DNA from: a virus
Strand: one strand, 5' to 3'
Virus record (IMG/VR): IMGVR_UViG_3300023179_000416
Span: 1-27,898 of that record
DNA length: 27,898 nt
Under the pieces are notes generated by a model. That model was not told the origin of the DNA. It made no database searches and saw nothing but the letters and a program-made list of their open reading frames with translations. A program made the position numbers and the translations under genes. Shown here one piece after another: positions 2,571 to 25,718 of the stretch. Each line of letters begins with the position of its first letter. The first letter of the stretch is position 1.

Positions 2571-4676
2571 TTAGAAATCTAACTTAATTACATATTGTTG
2601 AATCCCTTGTCTTAATGTTGGTGATTGTAGTTTTGACATCACAAGAACGTCTTTATTTTCGTCTAATAAAGCAATTTCAGTTACATACGATTTTTTTCCA
2701 AAGGTCCATGTAGGGTTTTGTGAAACTAAAAATTCAGTTGAGCTCAGATTGATTTTATATTTCATTTCATAAATAGTGGCTTGAATATCTGTTTCTAAAT
2801 TTCCATAAAAATAATATTCATCACCAAAGTTTAATTTTGGTCCAACTGTATTTAATGGAACTAAATCAATAAAATTATTTAAATTGTAAAGTGGTGCAGA
2901 ATTATAATTTGTGTCTGTAATAATAAAAGTTGTTCCTGTTAATGAATTTTGTGTAACGTATCCATTTATAAATTGATCTTCAATTTGGTTTGTAAAATTT
3001 ATAATTCTCCAAGATTGAGGATTTGGTTTTTGACCAACAGGTGTTTTTTGAGCCAATATTTGAAACTCAGTTGCATAAAATCCTTGAGGGACCACACAAG
3101 AAGGGCAATGTGTTGTTGTAGTTGTAACAGGCATTAAAGTTGTGGTAGTTGTAACAGGCATTACAGTTGTGGTAGTTGTTGTATAAAAATGAGTTGTAGT
3201 TGTTGTTGTTGGTGAAAACCCTGGTTGAACTAAACAAGGGAATTCTGCACCGAATCTAACCGCCACATTTTGTGGTGTGTCGGGTGAACAAACGTTTTGA
3301 GTTCCAACAACACTTGTATAATAATTTGAATGTAAAGAATTTGTAAATTCGTTTTTATTGGATAATCTGTAGGTAACCCATAAAGTTTCTTGTGAACCTG
3401 TTAAAACTCCAGATGTATTTGAAGTTCCGCAAGTATTTGGTGTAATAAGTGAAATTTGAGGTGCTGGCAAGGTCCAATTTCTATTTGACTTATAAGATAA
3501 TGCCGCAACAATTTCTTCATCGTCTATAACAATTGTTTGTGAATCAGGATATACTTTACCAATTCGACTTGGTAATCCGTTTATTTGTGGAAACGTATCC
3601 CAAAGATTATAATACCTTAATCCTGGTTGATTCATGTTAGTAGAAATGTTAGACTTTGTATATTGAACTTGAAAAAGGTTTTTCCCGTCAAATCCAGGAG
3701 GATCAACATAAAACGTTTGACCAAAACAACATTCGGGGTTTTTGTGCCACATTAAAGTTGGGATATGTAATCTAAAATTTCTCGCTTGTCCTTGTGTGTT
3801 TTCTGGATTTTGAGTATCAAAAGGTTGCATTGCAAATTTTTCGCCATAGAAAAAATCTATTGTTTGATTTGTATAATGAATTATTGCAATTGCTTTTTGG
3901 TCTTGTGGTGTGACAATTTTTTTCTCACCGAAAGAATTATAATAATAAACATCATCAGTAGATGTTTGAGAATTTGTAGTATAACCAAAAAATTCTTTTT
4001 GACCAAGATATTGTATAGAACCAAATTTAGTATAATCTTCAAATTGTGAAGAGATTAATCCAGCAGGACTTTCACTCCAAGGAATATTCATGTTCCATAT
4101 TTTTACATCGAATTGGTCTGTATCACACACAGATTCAAAATCTATAACATTTTGAGCCCAATGTTTTTCTGGTGTGAAACTGTCATATAAAGGAACCATT
4201 TTTGGTGGATAAATTATTGCTCTTGCAATACAATCAACCGATAAATTTGTATAATCAGGTGTATTTCTATCTAATGTAAGTTTATCTTGACACACATTTA
4301 TAATTCTATACGTAAGTGTTGGAAAACAACTAAATACGGATTTTTCACAATTAGGTGGTGGTGGAACGGGACATACAGGGCTTGGTGATGGTGTTAAACA
4401 AGGAGTTGCTGTTGGTGATGGTGTTGGGGTTGGAGATGCGCAAGGGTTTGTTGGTGTAAAAGATGGTGTAGGCGTTGGTGTAAAACTAGTATATGGTGTA
4501 GACGTATTTGTTGGCGTTGGCGTTGGGGTAGGAAGTCCTGTGCAACTACAATCACTTTTTGCCAAACCATCAAAATATATTGTTATGATGTCACCAATTT
4601 GAGGAGTTTTTTGATTCGAAGGGTCACAGTCAATTCTATAGACATTAATTTCATTTGTACCACTCAAACTATACAT
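2571..4676 (-). CDS. Large virion protein with Pro-Thr and poly-Thr linkers, probable tail fibre/adhesin
   Basis: From the ATG at 4676 the product is about 701 residues. A short N-terminal domain with a GDIITIYFDG strand and a C-x-C pair leads into a long Pro-Thr/Ser-Pro linker (about residues 49-108). A large central domain follows, then poly-Thr tracts (3111-3213), then a C-terminal beta domain ending in an alternating YVIKLDF strand. The C-terminal segment, with an ExALLDEN-type turn, resembles tail-fibre attachment domains, but I cannot assign a family. The frame stays open upstream to a TTG at 4730. I prefer the ATG at 4676, which overlaps the previous gene by 13 bases. The N-terminus may instead continue the 145-residue protein by a frameshift (see findings). 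No catalytic motif was seen. Confidence 0.7.
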   Translation of the reverse strand: MYSLSGTNEINVYRIDCDPSNQKTPQIGDIITIYFDGLAKSDCSCTGLPTPTPTPTNTSTPYTSFTPTPTPSFTPTNPCASPTPTPSPTATPCLTPSPSPVCPVPPPPNCEKSVFSCFPTLTYRIINVCQDKLTLDRNTPDYTNLSVDCIARAIIYPPKMVPLYDSFTPEKHWAQNVIDFESVCDTDQFDVKIWNMNIPWSESPAGLISSQFEDYTKFGSIQYLGQKEFFGYTTNSQTSTDDVYYYNSFGEKKIVTPQDQKAIAIIHYTNQTIDFFYGEKFAMQPFDTQNPENTQGQARNFRLHIPTLMWHKNPECCFGQTFYVDPPGFDGKNLFQVQYTKSNISTNMNQPGLRYYNLWDTFPQINGLPSRIGKVYPDSQTIVIDDEEIVAALSYKSNRNWTLPAPQISLITPNTCGTSNTSGVLTGSQETLWVTYRLSNKNEFTNSLHSNYYTSVVGTQNVCSPDTPQNVAVRFGAEFPCLVQPGFSPTTTTTTHFYTTTTTTVMPVTTTTTLMPVTTTTTHCPSCVVPQGFYATEFQILAQKTPVGQKPNPQSWRIINFTNQIEDQFINGYVTQNSLTGTTFIITDTNYNSAPLYNLNNFIDLVPLNTVGPKLNFGDEYYFYGNLETDIQATIYEMKYKINLSSTEFLVSQNPTWTFGKKSYVTEIALLDENKDVLVMSKLQSPTLRQGIQQYVIKLDF
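3111..3213 (-). repeat. Poly-Thr linker-coding tract with 27-bp tandem duplication
   Basis: ACA/ACT-rich codons encode four Thr runs broken by short VMPV-, LMPV- or HFY-like spacers. Positions 3121-3147 and 3148-3174 are 27-bp direct tandem copies differing at a single base (AAAG versus ACAG within the unit). This shows recent duplication or slippage within the coding sequence. Confidence 0.85.
4353..4532 (-). repeat. Long Pro-Thr / Ser-Pro linker-coding region
   Basis: About 60 codons rich in Pro, Thr and Ser, with occasional Cys, form a degenerate repeat in the N-terminal part of the 2571-4676 protein. It is the same linker style as in the plus-strand adhesin at 356-1855. Confidence 0.75.
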
Positions 4677-5101
4677 ATCCACAACATAATTGGTGTAGAA
4701 ACATACTGGTTGTTTGTAAATACCTTCCAATTTATAGTATTTGCGGTTGTATTCCCTGTGAAAAAACCTCTCATTGCCGCTCTATTAAAAACAGGTTCTA
4801 TTTGAGAATCCATAAAAGGAATTCCATATATATTTGTTTGTCCCTGGTCAACAATATAGGGATATTTAATATATTGTCGGTTGGATTGTGGAACTCCTGA
4901 GCTATTTTGACTATTAAATTCTGGTTGTAAAATAACCGTGTCTGTCTGATTATATGTTGATGGAAGGGAGTTATAACTTATTTCACTATCTCCAATAGCA
5001 AAATAAGATATTCTGAAATTTCCTTCTGATAATCTCTGTCTACCTGTGTCTGTTACTCTTGTGTTAACTAACCCCGATGTATTTTTTATAATGTATGCCA
5101 T
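4664..5101 (-). CDS. Phage virion protein with conserved TD-x-GR...GNF...GDSE N-terminus
   Basis: This 145-residue product begins MAYIIKNTSGLVNTRVTDTG and continues with RQRLSEGNF and FAIGDSEISY. That arrangement resembles N-terminal domains of tail-fibre or baseplate-associated proteins in T4-like phages, where it often heads a longer protein. The last ten or so residues (PIMLWICIV) are oddly hydrophobic and unlike the rest. At that point the next frame takes over with a plausible continuation, so the gene may be the front half of a longer protein. The ATG at 5101 follows an A/T-rich leader with two overlapping TATTTAT motifs. It lies 22 bases after the 5124-6779 gene and overlaps the following gene by 13 bases. 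A virion role is inferred from context and motif style. Confidence 0.65.
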   Translation of the reverse strand: MAYIIKNTSGLVNTRVTDTGRQRLSEGNFRISYFAIGDSEISYNSLPSTYNQTDTVILQPEFNSQNSSGVPQSNRQYIKYPYIVDQGQTNIYGIPFMDSQIEPVFNRAAMRGFFTGNTTANTINWKVFTNNQYVSTPIMLWICIV

Positions 5102-5123: not shown

Positions 5124-6779
5124 TTATATTTGTGGTGGTGTTGGTATTGTTGGGTTCATTATTTCAAATTCACAACAACTACATCCGTTTATTTGTGGTT
5201 TGGTCATAGTAAGGTAATAATAACCAACAGCGTTTTTACAAGATCCGACAGGTGGGTTTATAATCAAATTTGTTGTTGACCCCGTTATAGTTTGATTACT
5301 AGAAAATGTTAAAGTTTTTGTAAATGTTTTTTGTATTTGTAATATTGATATTGGATTTTTTGCAGTGCAAGGTCCTGTCAATGGAATTAGATTTGTTGTT
5401 TGATTAATTAAAAGTAGTTGGAAACTATTACTAACTGTTGTATAATTATCATAAGTTGGTTGTGGTAAAATTCCTGCAGGATAGAAACTAAAAATTGAGG
5501 TCATTTCTAAGTCAATACTTAAGGTAACTCCTCCTGGTAATGAAGGGGCCGTTATTGAAAACGTGTCGTTATTATAATCTACTATCAAATTTAAAATGTA
5601 TGAAGTTGGTAAATTATTTGATATTGTCACGCTAACTGTGTTTCCTACAATTCCGTTATTATCAATTGCTGTAACTGAATAATTTCCTGGAGTCAAATTG
5701 TTAAACATTGGTGATAGTTGATAGGATTGTCCTCCATTAATAGAGTATGAGTAAGGTATAAGACCCCCACTTGCAGTGGCTGTTATACTTCCAAGACCCC
5801 CACAAAGAGCATCGTTATCAGTTGCTGAAACAAAAACAGAATATCCTGTATTACAATCCCCTTCTATCATACTAACAGACCTAATATTTGAATTTCCTAA
5901 AATTTGCCAATTACTCAAAGGCGGATATGAAGGATCATTATTTATAAATAAAGTTGTTGGGCTGTATCCTGTAATAGTCCATCTTGATGGTGTTGATCCT
6001 GTATTCCAAAATAATAAATATTGACTTGTGTCTGAAGTCCAACTTTGTCTTCCGTTTATGTCTGTAGACGGATTAAATTCTATGTTTTGAACATTAAATG
6101 TTGGAACTTCAACATTTTCTCCAAAAGTTTCTATACTAAAACAAAGTTTATATTCATTTTCAGGATTCACAGGACTATTACAACTTCCGACATAAGATTC
6201 CATAATTCTAAACTCAGTATCTAAAGCGAGTTCCCATTCCGTAGTTCCTGAAGGGTAAAAAGTATTACCCGAAAATATATTATAAGGTCCTGATTGACAA
6301 TCTAAAGATTGACAAAAATACCATTCTTGGTTTGCTTGATTCCAAAAAACATAACCTAAATCTTGAATTCCGTAATGTAAAAAATAACTTGGTCTTCCAT
6401 TTTTAAGTCCTAAACTTTCACTGGTTATATAAACCACATCATTTATAACAACACCTGAAACAACAAAACACATATCTAATATTGTTTTTGTTTCTGCGGT
6501 TAAAACACACACGGTATTTGCAGTAAAATCACCATATGAATCTACAATTGTCGCACTGTATTCACCCACACCAACGTTTGTAAGTGCTGGAGCAAATCCT
6601 CCAATATCCCAACTTATGACGTATGGTGGTGTTCCTCCGGTTATTGATAAAGCAGCTAAACCATCAAAAGACCTATCAGTAGTTGGGTGATGTACAAAAC
6701 ATTGCACTCCCATGGGAAATATTGTTATAACATCGCATTCGTTTGGTCTTTGTAAAGTAGGTGTTGTAGATATTCCCAT
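5124..6779 (-). CDS. Modular adhesin / tail fibre with SprB-like repeats and Tyr-Trp modules
   Basis: This 551-residue protein shows a clear mosaic. Residues about 20-95 form a SprB-like repeat (GGTPPY...W...GEYSATIVDSYG). Residues about 104-195 and 210-295 are two copies of a module with NGRPSY or NGRQSW, then a WN or FWN strand, then a WYF or RWT strand. Residues about 312-388 form a second SprB-like repeat (GGLIPYSYS...LTPGNYSVTAIDNNG). The C-terminal part, about 390-551, is beta-rich and ends in a Cys cluster (CSCC). SprB repeats are known from the gliding-motility adhesin of Flavobacterium and related extracellular proteins, so a host-binding role is likely. The Tyr-Trp module recurs in the 356-1855 protein. 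The gene starts 14 bases after the glycosyltransferase stop. It has no signal peptide or enzyme motif. Confidence 0.72.
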   Translation of the reverse strand: MGISTTPTLQRPNECDVITIFPMGVQCFVHHPTTDRSFDGLAALSITGGTPPYVISWDIGGFAPALTNVGVGEYSATIVDSYGDFTANTVCVLTAETKTILDMCFVVSGVVINDVVYITSESLGLKNGRPSYFLHYGIQDLGYVFWNQANQEWYFCQSLDCQSGPYNIFSGNTFYPSGTTEWELALDTEFRIMESYVGSCNSPVNPENEYKLCFSIETFGENVEVPTFNVQNIEFNPSTDINGRQSWTSDTSQYLLFWNTGSTPSRWTITGYSPTTLFINNDPSYPPLSNWQILGNSNIRSVSMIEGDCNTGYSVFVSATDNDALCGGLGSITATASGGLIPYSYSINGGQSYQLSPMFNNLTPGNYSVTAIDNNGIVGNTVSVTISNNLPTSYILNLIVDYNNDTFSITAPSLPGGVTLSIDLEMTSIFSFYPAGILPQPTYDNYTTVSNSFQLLLINQTTNLIPLTGPCTAKNPISILQIQKTFTKTLTFSSNQTITGSTTNLIINPPVGSCKNAVGYYYLTMTKPQINGCSCCEFEIMNPTIPTPPQI

Positions 6780-6793: not shown

Positions 6794-7774
6794 TCAGATC
6801 TTTTGTTTTTGTATATATTCTTTCATGTTATCAATATATTTAATGGTTGAATTATTTTTATCAACATAATCAAAATAGGTAAAATCGTTTTTTAATTTTT
6901 CTATTGGGTCTACATTTATAAAATCTCCTTTATAAAATTTTGTGTTTTTTAAATTATCCGTAACTCCTGCCATATGTAAAATAGGTTTTTTTTCATATAC
7001 TTCAACACTATCAGTCGCCCATGAAAAATCAAGTTCTTTTGTTATGATTGTTTGTTTGTTATCTAACCACAAATTCCATAATAAACTCCACATTTCTGCT
7101 GTCCAAAATTGAATCTCTCCTGGTGAAATTGGAAATCTTCTTTGATAATCTAACATTTGATTATATAATCCTATCGAATCCTCGTATATTTTTTCCCACA
7201 ACTCATATGTTGTATTTTTTATAATATACTGACCTCCACCTGAATGAAGTCTATTTTTTTTAATTACATCAACATCAATTTTTACAACTTGTGCCATTTC
7301 TTCTAACAATTGATTTTTTGTTGAATTTGGGTGTTGTTGTTCATATCTTCTACAACAATCCAAAATATAATCATAACTAATGTATCCGTTTGTATCTGAT
7401 AAATAACAAATATCATCTTCGACCATACTACCGAAATTTGGGAGTTTTCTAAATATTATATCTGCGTCATGAAGAAAAAATAACTTTCCGTTTTGTGGGT
7501 AATCTTTAATCCATTTAGAAATCAAGTATGGTTTTATTGATGGAATATAATTTTTTTTTCTTCTATTGTCGGAATAGTAATGAACATTTACTCCCATTTT
7601 TTTTAATTCCAAAGATTCTTTTGATGGTTCGTTGTTTGGTGAAACAATTGCAAAAATAATGTGAATGTTTGATGGATTTATGCCTTTTTGTATAAAATTA
7701 TACACATATAACTTTGATTGCCAAATAAAATAAGAAACGTCAGGTTGTGCTGTAACAAAAAGAATATTTTTCAT
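6794..7774 (-). CDS. Glycosyltransferase-like protein with DxD motif
   Basis: This 326-residue protein starts with a Rossmann-like strand (KNILFVTAQ). It carries FFLHDADIIF, whose D103-x-D105 fits the metal and nucleotide-sugar-binding DxD of GT-A enzymes. Further features fit a transferase core: SGGGQYIIK at about 178-186, an acidic/aromatic EIQFW...EMW block at about 220-230, and ILHMAG with His at 267. There is no signal peptide or membrane segment, so it would act in the infected cell's cytoplasm. It sits between two adhesin groups, which makes Thr/Ser-rich fibre proteins plausible acceptors; DNA or host surface glycans are alternatives. It is not a T4 DNA glucosyltransferase by eye. Acceptor and sugar are unknown. 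The 79-base leader holds a long inverted repeat, suggesting separate control. Confidence 0.68.
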   Translation of the reverse strand: MKNILFVTAQPDVSYFIWQSKLYVYNFIQKGINPSNIHIIFAIVSPNNEPSKESLELKKMGVNVHYYSDNRRKKNYIPSIKPYLISKWIKDYPQNGKLFFLHDADIIFRKLPNFGSMVEDDICYLSDTNGYISYDYILDCCRRYEQQHPNSTKNQLLEEMAQVVKIDVDVIKKNRLHSGGGQYIIKNTTYELWEKIYEDSIGLYNQMLDYQRRFPISPGEIQFWTAEMWSLLWNLWLDNKQTIITKELDFSWATDSVEVYEKKPILHMAGVTDNLKNTKFYKGDFINVDPIEKLKNDFTYFDYVDKNNSTIKYIDNMKEYIQKQKI

Positions 7775-7853: not shown

Positions 7854-8081
7854 TTATATATCTTCACAATTAATGTTTTTTGAAAAGGTACATCCTGAAA
7901 TATCTGTTATTATAATTTTTACTGCCGGTGCTGTATCAAACAATTGTGGGAGTGTAAATGTTATTGGAAATGTTGTCCCACTACTTAAATACTGACATTG
8001 ATTGCCATAAACATCACAAGCAACACCGCTAAACGGTGGTGTTATATTTGAAGCAGAAGTTATGACTACTTGATTTGCCAT
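7854..8081 (-). CDS. Small Cys-containing virion-associated protein, paralogue of the 133-354 product
   Basis: This 75-residue protein aligns throughout with the 73-residue protein at 133-354. Shared features are the CD-x5-C pair (C22/C29), a FPITFTLP block matching PYQFTVP, and a DxSGC motif (C64). A fourth Cys is at C72. The pattern suggests one small beta module held by Cys pairs. The ATG follows the stop of the SprB-repeat gene after three bases (TGA AAA ATG), so translation is probably coupled to it. As at the left edge, a small protein of this family sits directly beside a large adhesin, suggesting a joint role in the fibre. It has no signal peptide and no known family by name. Confidence 0.75.
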   Translation of the reverse strand: MANQVVITSASNITPPFSGVACDVYGNQCQYLSSGTTFPITFTLPQLFDTAPAVKIIITDISGCTFSKNINCEDI

Positions 8082-8084
8082 TTT

Positions 8085-10280
8085 TCACCCACAATTTACA
8101 CAAGATATATCATAATCAATAATTAATTTAACAATCAATTGATTATCTTGTAATGGATTTATTGGGACTATTTCACATCCTTTGGGTATATCTTCACATG
8201 TTGTAGTTACTGTTATTCTGTTTGTAACAATATCTATAGTTGTTCCTGATATACCTAAAAAAGAATCTAAAGTATTGATTATGGTTTTAGCCCATAATTG
8301 ATCTGATGGATAATCTGTAGATCCGCTTGATGTATAAAATTCGGTCTGTGCAGATTGTGAACCAACACTTGCATATATAGAAAATACCGCCTCATTTATT
8401 ACACAATTTGTGTCTCCTGTTGTTAAATCATAAAAACCTTCATAAAACATTGATCGAATGTTTCTTTTAGTAACAAGTCCGCTATTTTTAAACTCGTCAG
8501 AACATACATTATAATATCTATAATCAGAATATTTTTTTGTACCAGCCAATGTAATACTTTTTGTTAATGTACAGCCATTATTATCAATAACAGTACAACT
8601 GTAAGTTCCTGCAGTAAGTCCTGTCACAGTGCTTCCTGTTTGTGAATTTGACGACCCTCCACTCCAAATATAAGTAAATGGAGGTTTTCCTGTATTTACA
8701 TAACTTGTTATTATTCCATCATTTCCAACAATAGGTTGGGTTGGAAATAGATTAAAAAAAACAGATTGGCTATTTGAAATAAAAACAGGTATTGTTTGGC
8801 TACAAGCAGGGGTACTAGAATCTTGTACTGTAAGAGTATAATTTCCGTATTTCAAATTTGTAAAAGTGCTTATAGGGGATGTGGTTGTTGTTGGATTATA
8901 GGTTGGTCCTGTTAGAGTAAAAATATAAGGTAGTGTTCCTCCTGTTGTTACGGTTGCTTGTAATATACCATTGTTTTGACCACAAGTAGTTCCTGTTGTA
9001 GAAGCCGAAACCGTAAACAAATTAACCGAATTAATACTTGTGGTTGCAGTATAAGTACAACCATCAGATTTAACTGTAACTAAATAATTACCATTGTTTA
9101 ACCCATAAAAAAACTGATTCGAATTATTAATTGTTCCCGTTTGTTGAATTCCTGACGATCCAGATACTGAAATTTGTAAATTACTAGCGCTACTTAATCC
9201 ATTATCCACTAAAACTTGTATTACACCATTATTTGTAGAACATACTGAGTTAGTTGTGTTTATGGCAACGCTTGTAAATGAATTTGGTGTTGTAAGACTT
9301 ACTGAATCATATACAGTACATAATCCTGAGTCTGTTACTAAAAAGGAATAAGATCCACTTGATAGTCCTGTAAAAATTACTGAATTTGAAAATGTTATGT
9401 CAACTTGTCCTGTTGATGCACTAAAAAAATATGGCGGTGTTCCATTTACCACAATAAATTCAACCTCTCCATCGTTTTGAAAACATGTTGGTTGTTGTAA
9501 TACAATAAATCCTCCTGATGAAACAGGTGTCACATTATTGACAGTAAATGATTGTGAACTAGAACATCTTGATGAATTAGTCACGGTGACATTGTAAGTA
9601 CCTGCCGTTAGTCCTGTAATTGTAGATCCGCTTTGTGGTAATACAGATGGTGACCAATTTATTGTATATGCAGATAATGGTTCGGTTAGACCTGTTAAAA
9701 ATATTTTACCTGAAGCAATACCCAAACAAGACGCATTATCAACCACATATCCACCAAACGAAAAAGGATTTGATGAATTTATAATTATCGAAGCCGTAAT
9801 TCCTGTACATCCACCTCCATCATTAGCCACAATATAATAAGTGCCGGCAGATAAAGATGTAAAATTATAATCATTTGTTGTAGAAGTTGCAGATGTAATG
9901 TAATTATCAGAACCGTCATAAAGATAAAAACTTGTAAAACCATAAACACCAGATGTAAATCCCGTAATAGAACCATTATCAAGGCCGCAGGTTGTATGCG
10001 CCGAATCAATTGTTGCAGTAGTTCCTGTTGAAATATATACGGTTTGTATTATAGACCCTCCACCCCCATCAATTATTTTTAGAAAATACGTTCCTCCACT
10101 TGCACCAGAAAAGTAATATTCATATGGTGCGGTAAGTGCTGAAGTAGGGAGTGGGCATGGTGATGAAATACAACTCACCGCAAAAGGTGGTGTAGTTCCT
10201 GTAACTTGTAAAAACACTTCTCCAAGTCCTAAGTTAGAACAATCTCCAGTTACACTATATTGTGAAAGCGATATACTCAT
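8085..10280 (-). CDS. SprB-repeat tail fibre / adhesin with shared C-terminal virion domain
   Basis: Residues 1-581 of this 731-residue protein hold about seven repeats of roughly 75 residues. Each runs C-x-NG...GTPPY...GLTAGTY-x-VTV-x-DxxGC, the signature of SprB-type repeats (PF13573 by recollection) found in Bacteroidota surface adhesins. Residues about 625-731 form a different domain whose FYTS-x-GS, PS-x3-W and closing C-x2-C features match the last 93 residues of the adjacent 995-residue protein. This suggests a common attachment or trimer domain. There is no signal peptide and no enzyme motif. The ATG overlaps the stop of the preceding gene as TAATG, indicating coupled translation. Best reading: a host-recognition fibre with a repeat shaft and an attachment domain. 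The repeat call is firm; the fibre role is inferred. Confidence 0.8.
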   Translation of the reverse strand: MSISLSQYSVTGDCSNLGLGEVFLQVTGTTPPFAVSCISSPCPLPTSALTAPYEYYFSGASGGTYFLKIIDGGGGSIIQTVYISTGTTATIDSAHTTCGLDNGSITGFTSGVYGFTSFYLYDGSDNYITSATSTTNDYNFTSLSAGTYYIVANDGGGCTGITASIIINSSNPFSFGGYVVDNASCLGIASGKIFLTGLTEPLSAYTINWSPSVLPQSGSTITGLTAGTYNVTVTNSSRCSSSQSFTVNNVTPVSSGGFIVLQQPTCFQNDGEVEFIVVNGTPPYFFSASTGQVDITFSNSVIFTGLSSGSYSFLVTDSGLCTVYDSVSLTTPNSFTSVAINTTNSVCSTNNGVIQVLVDNGLSSASNLQISVSGSSGIQQTGTINNSNQFFYGLNNGNYLVTVKSDGCTYTATTSINSVNLFTVSASTTGTTCGQNNGILQATVTTGGTLPYIFTLTGPTYNPTTTTSPISTFTNLKYGNYTLTVQDSSTPACSQTIPVFISNSQSVFFNLFPTQPIVGNDGIITSYVNTGKPPFTYIWSGGSSNSQTGSTVTGLTAGTYSCTVIDNNGCTLTKSITLAGTKKYSDYRYYNVCSDEFKNSGLVTKRNIRSMFYEGFYDLTTGDTNCVINEAVFSIYASVGSQSAQTEFYTSSGSTDYPSDQLWAKTIINTLDSFLGISGTTIDIVTNRITVTTTCEDIPKGCEIVPINPLQDNQLIVKLIIDYDISCVNCG

Positions 10281-13267
10281 TAACCGTTACAAAAAACTTC
10301 AAAGTTTATTCCAAGATTCAACTCAAAATCATCAAAATTTGGCACACAATTGTTGTTAAAAACAACTAACTGTTCGATATCTTCATCAATATTATAACTA
10401 TATCCACTGTTTAGTAAATTAGAAAATGTATTCTTAATACCTGTAATCCAATCTTGTGTTGATGGAGAGTGTCCAGTTCCTATACTTGTGTAAAATTGTT
10501 CTTGAGCAATTTGAACTCCATTGATTCTAATATCAACATACCAATTACCAATAGTTGTATTCAGCTGGCAAGTATTTGGGTTTATTTCTTGAGATATAAA
10601 AAATTGTTGTAATGTTTGATATAGAACAACGTCAAAAGAAGTTATGTTGGGATTTGAATTCCATGGATATAATCCACAAGTAACTTTTTGAACCGGACAA
10701 TCAAGAACATAAAAGTTTGACACTAACTCACAAGGATCACAAGGTATTGGTAAAAACTTACATCCTTCTTGTCTTCTCCACACAAATTTTTGTCTATGAA
10801 AAATTGAATTTTCTAATCTTACTCCTGTGTTCCAAATTGTAGTTGCTGGAACCATTTGCTCAATTAAACGAATCCAATAATTACCCATACCATTTACAAA
10901 ATCAATCATAGTTTTATATGTGAAATTATCATTTGGTATACCAGCTTGAGTCAAAGATTCTAAATACTTCCAATAAATTGATTCTAAAGTGGGATAACCT
11001 CCAGTTTTTCCATCAGTTATAAATTGTCGATTACGAGTATTAATCATATTTCTCCAAAATGTTTGAGCAAATTCAAAAAAAGTTTTTTGTTTTGGTTTTG
11101 GAATTATTGATGTCCAATCGATTCCTCCTAATTTTGGATATGGGTTTGATATTTGGCATGGTGATGGTGGTGTATAAAATAAACCTTGCTCAGGTATAGG
11201 ATAATTTTTTTGTCTTGACATTGTCCAAACATCATAAACTAATCCTTGAGCCGGATTCATCATAATATCAACATTTTTAACATTCAAAGTTAAACAGTCT
11301 TCACTCACTGAATAATACGCATTAAAACCTCCATCAGAAGAAATTCTTAAAAAGGGAGTAGTATCGACCCAACTTTTTTTATTGTCTTGAACGTTTCTTA
11401 ATTTGTATCCAAGATTCATATAAGGAAATTCTCTATATCTTTGTAAATATTCTTGTCCATAATTAAATGGAAGTAGTTGTGTTTGATAGTCAGGATTGTT
11501 TCCTGTAAACACAGCATTTGTTGGTATTGCGACTTCTGGCATTCTATGATCTGGGGTCGATTGATACCAACCTCCACCAACTTGAAAAAAATAATCTTCG
11601 GTTGGTGTTGGCATTTTTGGACATCCCACACTATCAACGGGATAATCAGTTCTTGTCGTTAAAACATTTGCATTTGTTAATGTGGTAGTAAATCCAGTGT
11701 ATTGAATTCCTTGAATTGAAAAGACATATGTTTTATCTAATATTGGAAATTCTTGTGTAAAACTGCCCAAACTAATTTGAGCATATTGCTGGTTGAATTC
11801 AGACATATTAATTCTTCTATCTGCAATATAAATGTATTCATTAAAATCTATTAGAGCATCAGGAGCTCCTATCATTCTTAGTAAACATTCAATAGATTTT
11901 CTTGTTCCTTTCGATTTGAATAAGTATGCAGAATTTAAAATTAAGTTTCTATAAAATTGATAGTTAATCTCTTCAGGAGTCTGCCCAATTTGTAATCCAG
12001 GAAATCTGTTTGGTTGTGTGTTAAATACCGCCTGTAGCAATTCTTCTTGCGATATTGGCGAAAAATTAGTAACCCAACCTAAAGTTTGGGCTAAATTTTT
12101 TAAAAGTTGTGATGGTATGTCATTTTGAACTGTATAGTGAACACTGTTCATATTTCCAAGTGCAGTGATAAAAGTTCTTGTTTCGTCAAAACTTCTTCCA
12201 TAAATCTGTAACAATTTTTCAAATTTTTGATCTGGCGTATCAAATTCTTTTAAAGCACCTGTGGTTAAAAATCTAGATATAATATTTGTATTGTATTCAT
12301 CTAAGTTTACAGCAAATTCATTTATTTGCACAAGATAGTTGTCAAATGACACTGTCGATATGTCTAAATTCCAAACACCACCTCGAGGCCATGTCGCACT
12401 TTGTTTAGTAATAACATAACTTCCGTCTTCTTGTTCTATTGGAACGTAAAGTTGTGCGGTGTATGGTGGTGTAATGTTTCGATTTAACAAAAAATTTTCA
12501 ACTGGATCAAAATCTAAATTAAAAACTTTATTAACTTCAAAATCATTTGGTCTAATTATTAGATAATCGTTTGTTGATGTAAGTCCACTAAAAGGATTTC
12601 CATCAACTATTATTTTTAAAGTAGTAGAGTTATTATCTGTGGGATATAAATAATTTAAAGGATATTGTGTTCCATTAACAAACAAAATATATTTTTTGTA
12701 TTCCAATTTCATATTTCTTAGTGGTGAAACTTGAAATTCATTAAACATCATGTTTGTTTCGGCATTTATTGTGTAGTCAATTTCAAAAGGATTAAGTATT
12801 GATGATATGAAAATTTCTAAAGTAGTATCATCAGCATTTTTATCATATGAAATATTGAATGCGGTTGTTTGTTTTTCAAAAGTTGGTGTTGTTGAATTTA
12901 CCTCTAATCCTGCGGGAAAATAATTTATTATTTTTGTAACTGAAACGGAAAATCTTTTTACCAAAGATCCATATTGTGTAAAATTAGTAACTTGAGATAA
13001 ATCAAAGTTTGGATAAACTCTATAATTGTTTGCTAAAATTTGTAAAGATTCTTCTTGAGAACCGATGTTCATGGACTCCAAATTTATAGGATCTGAAAAT
13101 GTTCCTATTGTAAAAGTTCTTGTTTTTTTTTCGCTTATGCCTGTTGTAAAATTAAAATTTGCTTGCGTTAATCCTCCTCCAGCCGTTAACTGAATTCCAA
13201 CCAAATTGTTAGAAAATTGATTAGCAGCACTACTTTGTGGTGGACAATATATTTTTTCAAAATCCAT
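10280..13267 (-). CDS. Large baseplate/tail structural protein, gp7 or tail-protein-I-like in its middle, with shared C-terminal domain
   Basis: This 995-residue protein has a beta-rich N-terminal half. A helical region at about 345-490 begins with KLLQIYGRSFDE and continues through NDIPSQLLKNLAQTLGW to a GTRKSIECLLRMIG helix. That last part resembles the tail-protein-I / gp7-type wedge region of contractile baseplates, where it partners gp6; this is a pattern-level judgement. The C-terminus (about 903-995) matches that of the neighbouring SprB-repeat protein. Cysteines cluster at CDPC. Both ends use TAATG overlaps (at 13267 and 10280), so it is embedded in a coupled operon. With gp25- and gp6-like genes upstream, a wedge or wedge-peripheral role is likely. 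The exact T4 counterpart is uncertain. Confidence 0.7.
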   Translation of the reverse strand: MDFEKIYCPPQSSAANQFSNNLVGIQLTAGGGLTQANFNFTTGISEKKTRTFTIGTFSDPINLESMNIGSQEESLQILANNYRVYPNFDLSQVTNFTQYGSLVKRFSVSVTKIINYFPAGLEVNSTTPTFEKQTTAFNISYDKNADDTTLEIFISSILNPFEIDYTINAETNMMFNEFQVSPLRNMKLEYKKYILFVNGTQYPLNYLYPTDNNSTTLKIIVDGNPFSGLTSTNDYLIIRPNDFEVNKVFNLDFDPVENFLLNRNITPPYTAQLYVPIEQEDGSYVITKQSATWPRGGVWNLDISTVSFDNYLVQINEFAVNLDEYNTNIISRFLTTGALKEFDTPDQKFEKLLQIYGRSFDETRTFITALGNMNSVHYTVQNDIPSQLLKNLAQTLGWVTNFSPISQEELLQAVFNTQPNRFPGLQIGQTPEEINYQFYRNLILNSAYLFKSKGTRKSIECLLRMIGAPDALIDFNEYIYIADRRINMSEFNQQYAQISLGSFTQEFPILDKTYVFSIQGIQYTGFTTTLTNANVLTTRTDYPVDSVGCPKMPTPTEDYFFQVGGGWYQSTPDHRMPEVAIPTNAVFTGNNPDYQTQLLPFNYGQEYLQRYREFPYMNLGYKLRNVQDNKKSWVDTTPFLRISSDGGFNAYYSVSEDCLTLNVKNVDIMMNPAQGLVYDVWTMSRQKNYPIPEQGLFYTPPSPCQISNPYPKLGGIDWTSIIPKPKQKTFFEFAQTFWRNMINTRNRQFITDGKTGGYPTLESIYWKYLESLTQAGIPNDNFTYKTMIDFVNGMGNYWIRLIEQMVPATTIWNTGVRLENSIFHRQKFVWRRQEGCKFLPIPCDPCELVSNFYVLDCPVQKVTCGLYPWNSNPNITSFDVVLYQTLQQFFISQEINPNTCQLNTTIGNWYVDIRINGVQIAQEQFYTSIGTGHSPSTQDWITGIKNTFSNLLNSGYSYNIDEDIEQLVVFNNNCVPNFDDFELNLGINFEVFCNG

Positions 13268-23411: not shown

Positions 23412-25253
23412 TTATGAAAAATTGACAGAAGTTAGATTTAATACCCTAACATTTATATCTTTATTTGGATACCTAATTTGATAAACCTGTGTTGGTGTTG
23501 CAAACAACGTATCGGCCGTTGGTCTGATTTGTCTTAACACGGGATCTGAATATGGCATTGAGGTTTGAGACGAAGAGTATTGACCCCCAACTTGATTGAA
23601 AAATTGAATATCTGATATGCTAACTATTCCGTTTTCTGCCTGTATTAATCTTCTTAATTCCGAAATATTTACGTTTTGTCCTAACTCTCTAACCAATGGA
23701 TTAAAATAGTTTCCTATTATTTGAATTGTTTTTGCAACAATCGATCCTTGATTTTGGCTGTTATCCAACACAACATCAACAACAACAGATAAATCAATTG
23801 TATCGGCAGCTTCGATAGAAATATAATCATTAATCATTCTATAATTTGATAGATAATTTGCGATATTTTGTTTTAAAGTATTTGACACAACATTTGTCAA
23901 TGTCCCATTAGTGTCATAAGATAACATTTTAATTCTTATTTTATTGTTCTCTTCAGTAATTGCAACTTTAGCTGGGGCTCCAAACTGTGCTGGCATTGTT
24001 CTTAAAATAGAATTATAATCATTAACAGTGACCGCTCTGTTTTGTGCGGCAAAATTGAAAGACACTAAGTTTCTTACGTCTTCTGTTGTTGGTGGATTTG
24101 CCCCTCCAATTGCTGCCGTTACATTATTACATCGTAGACTATTAATAACACTTCTATTTACACTATCAGAAGGACCATTTACGGCAAATGAAACGGTTCC
24201 AATTTGATTAATAGTATTAATTCCAATATTACTTGATAAACCACCACCTATTCTATATTGAATAAATAAAGTTGTATTTGGAGTTAAGGCCGCCCCTAAA
24301 GCATAATTATTTGTGTACCTACTTAAATCAAAACCTTTTCCGTCTCTAGCAAATTCTCGTAATTGTTCTTCGGCAGATATATTTCCTCCACCAAAAGTAA
24401 GTTTACAATAACTTTCTGGTGTAAACTCAGATATAAATTTATTTGATGTTGTTATATATCTTCCTACTTTAATTCCTGGTTGATCAGAAACTTTAGTAGG
24501 ATCCTCAATAAAAACCCTATCTTGAACTAAAGCGTCTACTTCATACCATCTTTCTGGTCCTAATGTTAAAAAATCTTGAGGATTTGGAATTGTAGAGTAT
24601 TGTGTTCCAGATTTTAATAAAACACTTGTAATTCCTAAGACATTTTTTTCAGGTAAAAACAATTCAAAATATGGTTTTACATCATTTGGTGTTATTGTTC
24701 TTTTAAAAACTTTTGTTATTCCATTAACAACAACTTCTCTTTTTACAATTGTATAGTTCAACAACTTTCCGCTAGAATCAAAATTAGGTATTTTAACTCT
24801 ATTTGGTGATCCTTCGGCGTTGATTGCGGACGCAAAATCTATGTCATAAACGGTTTCAAAAGGTTGTCCACCACCATTAACTTGAGATCCTCTACGTAAA
24901 ACGCCACAATATCTTAAATCTTCTCTATCTCCAAAAGCCGGAACTGTTATTGAAAAATCTACCAAAGCCACTGATGGCCTTTGTCCCGGAACTTTAAGTC
25001 CATAAGTTCTAGCAATATTATAAATAGAATTTTTTTGTTGTGCAAACTGTAATACAGTTTCTTGAATGCTTCTATCAATTTGAAAATTTAAATTGTCTGT
25101 AACTGCCGCATTCATGTCTAACATTACTGAAAAAATACCAGCGTCGTTAAAGTTTTGAATTAAATCAGGATAATAAGTTCTTGTGAAATTTATCAATTCG
25201 GTTCGAACTCCTTGGAAATCTCTTACAGTATAGGATATTTTTTTTTCAGCCAT
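23412..25253 (-). CDS. Baseplate wedge protein, T4 gp6-like (baseplate J-like)
   Basis: This 613-residue protein opens with SYTVRDFQGVRTELINFTRT, followed by a DAGIFSVMLDMNAAVTDNLN helix and an IARTYGLKVPGQRPS turn. This is the characteristic start of gp6-like wedge proteins in contractile tails. Residues about 400-500 contain a VTVNDYNSILRTMPAQFG block typical of the conserved core, and a C-terminal helical domain (NISELRRLIQAENG) follows. In T4, gp6 forms the wedge ring with gp7 and gp25 around the hub. The length is close to T4 gp6 (660 residues). The gene starts six bases after the gp25-like gene, the expected order. Assignment is by recognised pattern. Confidence 0.85.
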   Translation of the reverse strand: MAEKKISYTVRDFQGVRTELINFTRTYYPDLIQNFNDAGIFSVMLDMNAAVTDNLNFQIDRSIQETVLQFAQQKNSIYNIARTYGLKVPGQRPSVALVDFSITVPAFGDREDLRYCGVLRRGSQVNGGGQPFETVYDIDFASAINAEGSPNRVKIPNFDSSGKLLNYTIVKREVVVNGITKVFKRTITPNDVKPYFELFLPEKNVLGITSVLLKSGTQYSTIPNPQDFLTLGPERWYEVDALVQDRVFIEDPTKVSDQPGIKVGRYITTSNKFISEFTPESYCKLTFGGGNISAEEQLREFARDGKGFDLSRYTNNYALGAALTPNTTLFIQYRIGGGLSSNIGINTINQIGTVSFAVNGPSDSVNRSVINSLRCNNVTAAIGGANPPTTEDVRNLVSFNFAAQNRAVTVNDYNSILRTMPAQFGAPAKVAITEENNKIRIKMLSYDTNGTLTNVVSNTLKQNIANYLSNYRMINDYISIEAADTIDLSVVVDVVLDNSQNQGSIVAKTIQIIGNYFNPLVRELGQNVNISELRRLIQAENGIVSISDIQFFNQVGGQYSSSQTSMPYSDPVLRQIRPTADTLFATPTQVYQIRYPNKDINVRVLNLTSVNFS

Positions 25254-25259
25254 ATAATA

Positions 25260-25718
25260 TTAAATATTGATAATAACAAAATCTTGTGATTCAAATGCAG
25301 AGTCGGTTATTCTATAGTCAATTTTGATTCTTGCGGTGTGTTCTAATGTTGCAATATTTGTAACTTTAAACTCTCTTTCCCCATATTGATTTACGGTCTC
25401 ACCTTTATTTTCCAATCCTTTTGATGCAGGTTCTACGGATATATTTGTTACTTGTAAGTTTGGCATATATGTTCTAATAGAATTTTGAATTTCTGATTCG
25501 ATATCAGAAAAAGTTGGTCCGTCTAAAGGTTCAAATATATATTCGTAAAGTCTTGATCCAAAATCAGGTAAAAAATACCTACTTCCTTTTCTTGTTAAAA
25601 GTAAGTGAACCAAATTGCTTCTTATTTCTGCTTCAGTTGAACTTGTAACATCCAAATATCTTCCAGTAAATGAATCAACGAAAGGAAAAGAAATTCCATA
25701 AGTTATACCATTAGCCAT
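25260..25718 (-). CDS. Baseplate wedge protein, gp25-like
   Basis: This 152-residue protein matches the gp25 / lysozyme-like baseplate family. An N-terminal ISFPFVDSFTGRYLDV is followed by EIRSNLVHLLLTRKGSRY and the hallmark DFGSRLYEYIFEPLD, then a helix (ESEIQNSIRTYMPN) and C-terminal strands. T4 gp25 (132 residues) joins the wedge to the sheath. The family is nearly universal in contractile injection systems, so this gene is the best evidence for a contractile tail. It is directly upstream of the gp6-like gene. The start has TATTTAT seven bases ahead and no Shine-Dalgarno sequence. The name is a structural equivalence; enzymatic lysozyme activity is not implied. Confidence 0.9.
   Translation of the reverse strand: MANGITYGISFPFVDSFTGRYLDVTSSTEAEIRSNLVHLLLTRKGSRYFLPDFGSRLYEYIFEPLDGPTFSDIESEIQNSIRTYMPNLQVTNISVEPASKGLENKGETVNQYGEREFKVTNIATLEHTARIKIDYRITDSAFESQDFVIINI

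Follow-up and report, generated by a model that had tools for sequence, protein, structure and literature searches.

Tail fibres of the T4 type consist of a constant proximal part and a variable distal part that binds the receptor and is exchanged by recombination. Both the SprB repeat family of Bacteroidota and the presence in phages of tail-associated Ig repeats of the Bacteroidota type (BACON) were known already. De Jonge (2019) has reported tandem BACON repeats in a tail-associated protein of crAss-like gut phages, and the array of crAssphage consists of duplicated units that are distinct from the bacterial ones (PMC6949934). A report on gut phages (PMC13370021) ascribes adhesion to surfaces to Ig-like proteins. 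Among bacteria, GhpA is the T9SS-secreted grappling hook of Aureispira and has been described as heptameric (PMC11205867). No description of phage fibres with SprB repeats was found in the open-licence literature searched. New here are a widespread family of such proteins, their constant number of seven units, the position-specific clades that these units form and an exchange point behind the array.

Units and predicted fold of the 731-aa protein

The window is a stretch of 27,898 nucleotides from an IMG/VR virus record, and all features given below in the form start..end lie on its minus strand. The gene at 8085..10280 has an ATG start, includes its stop codon and encodes a 731-aa protein of seven tandem units, each 74–89 aa in length, and a C-terminal domain. 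Unit 1 (aa 1–89, 10014..10280) opens with the N-terminus MSISLSQYSVTGDC, in which no signal peptide is apparent by eye. It is followed by unit 2 (aa 90–175, 9756..10013), unit 3 (aa 176–255, 9516..9755), unit 4 (aa 256–336, 9273..9515), which contains the direct Pfam SprB match (9405–9497), unit 5 (aa 337–422, 9015..9272), unit 6 (aa 423–507, 8760..9014) and unit 7 (aa 508–581, 8538..8759). Units 3 and 7 are the nearest to bacterial SprB repeats. The C-terminal domain of about 150 aa (aa 582–731, 8088..8537) is predicted to be alpha/beta (pLDDT 80.5, pTM 0.71), and a fold search with it gave no clear PDB relative (best Z 5.3).

About seven units marked by NG, TPPY, GLxxGTY and VxDxxGC had been read from the letters in an earlier note, and this description holds. 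When an HMM was trained on six hand-cut units and the seventh was scored against 500 of its own shuffles, each of the seven units exceeded all 500 (17.3–40.7 bits vs 15.1 for the best shuffle). An HMM of the units of 39 relatives, with the window sequence among the training set, likewise found seven units in the window protein at 49–75 bits each. All four marks are present in the joint consensus. One or two cysteines per unit are conserved in nearly all relatives; in bacteria they might be disulphides, but phage proteins are made in the cytoplasm.

The assignment of the units to SprB (PF13573) rests on the family, since the window protein alone scores 18.1 bits, under the Pfam cut-off of 28. 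All 39 aligned relatives matched SprB at E<=0.01 (best 2.3e-27). No other family was matched by as many of them or at so low an E-value, and the matches of the window protein and its relatives to further Ig-like families were weak. A genome-level SprB search placed 11 of 13 phage records over the cut-off, several of them in fibre-sized frames, and none of 14 control genomes; Flavobacterium phage immuto, a relative in gp6, had no match in this search. An NCBIfam search returned no matches. In the AlphaFold2 monomer (mean pLDDT 81.3), seven all-beta domains precede a C-terminal domain of alpha/beta type; the pTM of 0.34 means that the arrangement of the domains is not given by the model. The best PDB matches in Foldseek were fragments of GhpA (9flp, E 1.2e-19; 9flw, 3e-16), which is a match to a repeated common fold, and VIA-align ranked GhpA on a par with other chains of Ig and fibronectin type. 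With the full model as query, the best match in the viral structure library was A0A6J5LD72, already labelled 'SprB repeat'. The SprB reading of the earlier note is thus carried by the family profile, the predicted repeated beta domains and the GhpA match, and not by the score of the window protein alone. The family is supported as SprB-type. The protein is not an SprB adhesin as such: it has no apparent signal peptide, its gene stands next to baseplate genes, and neither it nor its relatives have a Pfam match to CHU_C. Por_Secre_tail has weak matches in 14 relatives (best 1.5e-6), and these may fall on Ig units.

A constant array with exchangeable modules near baseplate genes

Scanning IMG/VR with a profile produced 134 candidate relatives on contigs of up to 326 kb, and 80 of these candidates were kept. 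Exactly seven units were found in 63 of the 64 members that are non-redundant at 92% identity, and the sole match to an eighth unit (8.4 bits) falls inside a tip. Between phages, units at the same position are 39–54% identical and units at different positions 17–32%; a 71-column tree groups the units by position across phages, each position in a clade that is exclusive or nearly exclusive to it. The position-specific clades and the constant seven units indicate that the array arose before the phage family spread and that its length was kept. A scan of the genome collection with the full fibre profile yielded no relative, an absence that is weak evidence because the scan depended on short patterns.

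The conserved core ends in a YDISCVSC-like motif. Counting the fibres that differ within their first 200 residues gives 74, of which 19 run on for more than 30 residues past the core, often through a Thr/Pro-rich linker, and 55 have no extension of more than 30 aa. In relatives the extra modules sit after the C-terminal domain and include DUF285 repeats (4.4e-145), Fib_succ_major (7.7e-26) and others. Two pairs of closely similar phages have a constant proximal part and an exchangeable distal module, as in tail fibres. Loci L014 and L015 share 12.2 kb of DNA at 98.0% identity, a stretch that runs to 12222 in the linker, with the core ending at about 12188; their modules then differ (about 514 and 202 aa), and identity of 97.7% resumes from 13724, at the end of the gene. 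Loci L018 and L019 are 99.0% identical up to the linker, where 952 bp replace 141 bp, and 96.8% identical thereafter. The left breakpoints of both pairs lie in Thr-Pro or Thr-rich codons. At L019:12950-13180, downstream of the new stop, a piece that ends in LPIILSPCIP and a stop codon looks by eye like what is left of an earlier tip, and it suggests the direction of one exchange. The window fibre itself has no extension and no exchange, which was seen in relatives only. At the threshold used, no module of the fibre tips recurred in the extended proteins of the 75-aa or the 179-aa family.

Genes for a gp25-type baseplate wedge protein (25260..25718) and a gp6/baseplate-J-type wedge protein (23412..25253) lie upstream of the fibre gene, in a conserved order, and the divergent loci that were examined have relatives of the 391-, 301- and 995-aa proteins of the window ahead of the fibre. 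The gene of the 995-aa protein (10280..13267) adjoins the fibre gene at every locus covering both. This protein ends in a copy of the C-terminal domain of the fibre (aa 874–995, 10283..10648), with 37% identity over 62 aa; the domain profile gives 17.3 bits for the copy in the window and also finds the domain in 98 relatives of the 995-aa protein. Profile searches of PHROGs and the PDB gave nothing reliable for the 995-aa protein.

The genes after the fibre gene differ strongly in length among loci. The first encodes a 75-aa protein (7854..8081) whose relatives are extended to 97–625 aa, a further site of variable modules. At L005:13646 onward, a protein of the 179-aa family has a conserved N-terminus followed by collagen-like GTSGTNGTSG repeats. 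L004 and L006 have a 179-aa and a 404-aa gene that are missing from the neighbourhood of the fibre in the window. The 326-aa protein (6794..7774) belongs to phrog_4417, of unknown function, and appears glycosyltransferase-like by eye (DAD motif). Its relatives, about 33–37% identical, come from phages of mostly Gram-positive hosts, including Enterococcus, Lactobacillus and Staphylococcus (72 records, one of them Chryseobacterium). O-glycosylation of the fibre by this protein was considered and rejected: the D[ST][AILVMT] motif is not enriched (2 seen vs 3.4 expected), and loci such as L048 and L061 have no relative of the glycosyltransferase-like gene in the next ten genes or so. The 551-aa protein (5124..6779) has two further units of the SprB type, as the earlier note had proposed, at aa 27–97 (6489..6701, 16.2 bits) and aa 314–392 (5604..5840, 33.7 bits), and as a whole clears the Pfam cut-off (37.5 vs 28 bits). 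Proteins of 829 aa (L235) and 958 aa (L236) on other large contigs (G001, G008) resemble it: each has two SprB units, and their Thr/Pro linkers are long. The window reading frames at 4664–5101 and 2571–4730 correspond to one 835-aa protein in L006 (17001–19508), and the frameshift near 4700 is possibly an assembly error.

We consider it rather probable that the protein is a baseplate-associated fibre of a large contractile-tailed phage, with a conserved seven-unit shaft and replaceable tips. That it is a fibre of the virion, as the earlier note had called it, is likely from the position of its gene downstream of the gp25/gp6-type genes and from the exchangeable C-terminal modules. The host is probably a member of the Bacteroidota, judging from the SprB type of the units and the relatives of the gp6-type protein, which include Flavobacterium phage immuto (23.8%). 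The seven SprB-type Ig-like domains would make up a long shaft whose length is fixed and which ends in the alpha/beta domain that also occurs in the 995-aa protein encoded just upstream. This chain would hold receptor-binding modules away from the virion. The fibre may attach to the baseplate via its N-terminal side or via the 995-aa protein. Tips would be added or exchanged behind the C-terminal domain, often through Thr/Pro-rich linkers as in the relatives; if, as we infer, the modules bind receptors, their exchange would change host recognition and leave the shaft and its assembly undisturbed. For the 55 of 74 fibres without an extension, the one in the window included, it follows that the tip would be another protein or the array itself.

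These same 55 fibres, and the strongly varying lengths of the genes that follow, are what one would see if the protein were a structural component at the periphery of the baseplate, with SprB units as spacers and with recognition left to the varying proteins of the 75-aa/179-aa type and the 551-aa protein. We regard such an arrangement as unlikely, because L014 and L015 exchange the extension of the fibre while the genes of the 75-aa family and the glycosyltransferase-like gene stay the same. Another site on the virion is possible given the PDB sequence match to a neck-whisker protein. The best matches of the A2 profile there were the putative neck whiskers protein gp24 (7e-4) and decoration proteins (0.004, 0.039), and the adhesion reported for Ig-like proteins of gut phages would fit an adhesin of the neck, whiskers or capsid, like Hoc, T5 pb10 or neck whiskers, that is merely encoded near baseplate genes. 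This seems improbable for a gene that lies directly behind the 995-aa gene in the block after the gp25/gp6-type genes, whose product shares its C-terminal domain with the 995-aa protein and has C-terminal modules that are swapped in the way that receptor binding would lead one to expect.

Bacterial relatives of the units, and SprB proteins of related phages with predicted type IX secretion

When units 3 and 7 were used to search bacterial genomes, 113 candidates emerged, of which 77 distinct loci were kept. All bacterial records that name a taxon are Bacteroidota, with Flavobacterium foremost, and two are named only 'uncultured bacterium'. The best bacterial segments are 39–60% identical to the query unit. 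The median identity of a unit to its best sister unit is 57% in the bacterial proteins vs 36% in the phage, and the phage units are about as close to host repeats as to each other. Convergence of Ig-like folds on an SprB resemblance, with no homology, would account for the low score of the window protein alone and for the weak matches to other Ig-like families; it is very improbable, as SprB is matched by all 39 relatives, more than match any other family, and with the best E-value, and as the identity of units 3 and 7 to their best bacterial repeats is about 47%. Capture of the shaft of a host adhesin, which the earlier note had raised, is possible and would be old, in view of the closeness of the units to host repeats and of the clade that each position forms; the shared sugar-binding fold that the note offered as the alternative is hypothetical. 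The unit tree was rejected as an arbiter of the direction of transfer: it has 71 columns and weak deep support, and its bacterial sample is biased because the units were fetched with units 3 and 7 as queries.

CHU_C type IX secretion domains were found in the 642-kb phage LR756502.1 and in two contigs that belong to the fibre lineage, G002 (296 kb) and G003 (272 kb); in G003 and LR756502.1 they stand on proteins that also have SprB units and start with what looks by eye like a signal peptide. An 815-aa protein of G003 (L234:2470-4917, minus strand; 272.6 kb, a contig that also has the fibre locus L113) has a signal-peptide-like N-terminus, SprB units (6.5e-16) and CHU_C (8.9e-12), and among its neighbours are an FKBP-type protein and one with a weak OmpA-like match. 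In LR756502.1, from an uncultured phage, a 1670-aa SprB protein (L156:6825-11837; 13 stretches, 6.3e-95) has a signal-peptide-like start and CHU_C, and two further CHU_C matches are present. That the 731-aa protein, too, is a host-type SprB adhesin shown on the infected cell and no part of the virion is scarcely credible: related phages do encode SprB-type proteins with this type IX secretion domain, but the fibre lies inside the tail module with no apparent signal peptide and no CHU_C Pfam match, and its unit count is fixed, against 1 to 44 units detected in bacterial proteins, some of them truncated by contig ends.

If these contigs are purely viral, phages encode proteins whose predicted route of export is the type IX system of the host, which raises the question whether phages use host type IX secretion. 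We think it possible, though less likely than not, that this lineage took a host SprB chain as a seven-domain adaptor for swapped modules, such as DUF285 and Fib_succ_major, and that some of its phages export SprB/CHU_C proteins, which would reach the surface of the infected cell via the host T9SS. For the fibre reading that we favour, the constant-length array and the adjacent exchange point provide a clear and testable architecture for possible host-range change in large uncultured phages of Bacteroidota, and the near-identical phage pairs supply exact exchange boundaries.

Comparison with known systems

A0A6J5LD72 of an uncultured Caudovirales phage (BFVD) has 714 aa and is 30% identical over 759 alignment columns (E 2.2e-51). 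It probably belongs to the same family as the 731-aa fibre; its name 'SprB repeat' is a database label only, with no description found in the open-licence literature searched. SprB-repeat surface proteins of Bacteroidota, for example of Flavobacterium, share with the phage protein the repeat family, the unit length and the predicted tandem Ig-like domains. The complete bacterial proteins inspected have a signal-peptide-like start, and several end in a sorting domain of the T9SS type, whereas the phage protein has neither; their unit number is variable and their sister units are similar, in contrast to the seven anciently diverged units of the phage protein. The GhpA structures of Aureispira (9flp, 9flw, 9flx, 9fls, 9flv) are the best Foldseek matches of the array (1.2e-19 to 6.6e-11), but they are only 16–18% identical to it and GhpA functions in predation. 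BACON arrays resemble the SprB-type array in being a tandem of a Bacteroidota-associated repeat domain in a tail-associated phage protein; they belong to another domain family and another phage lineage, whereas constant unit number and exchange of terminal modules distinguish the SprB-type array. Tail fibres of the T4 type share the plan of a constant and a variable part with the family described here, in which the shaft is a chain of SprB-type Ig domains.
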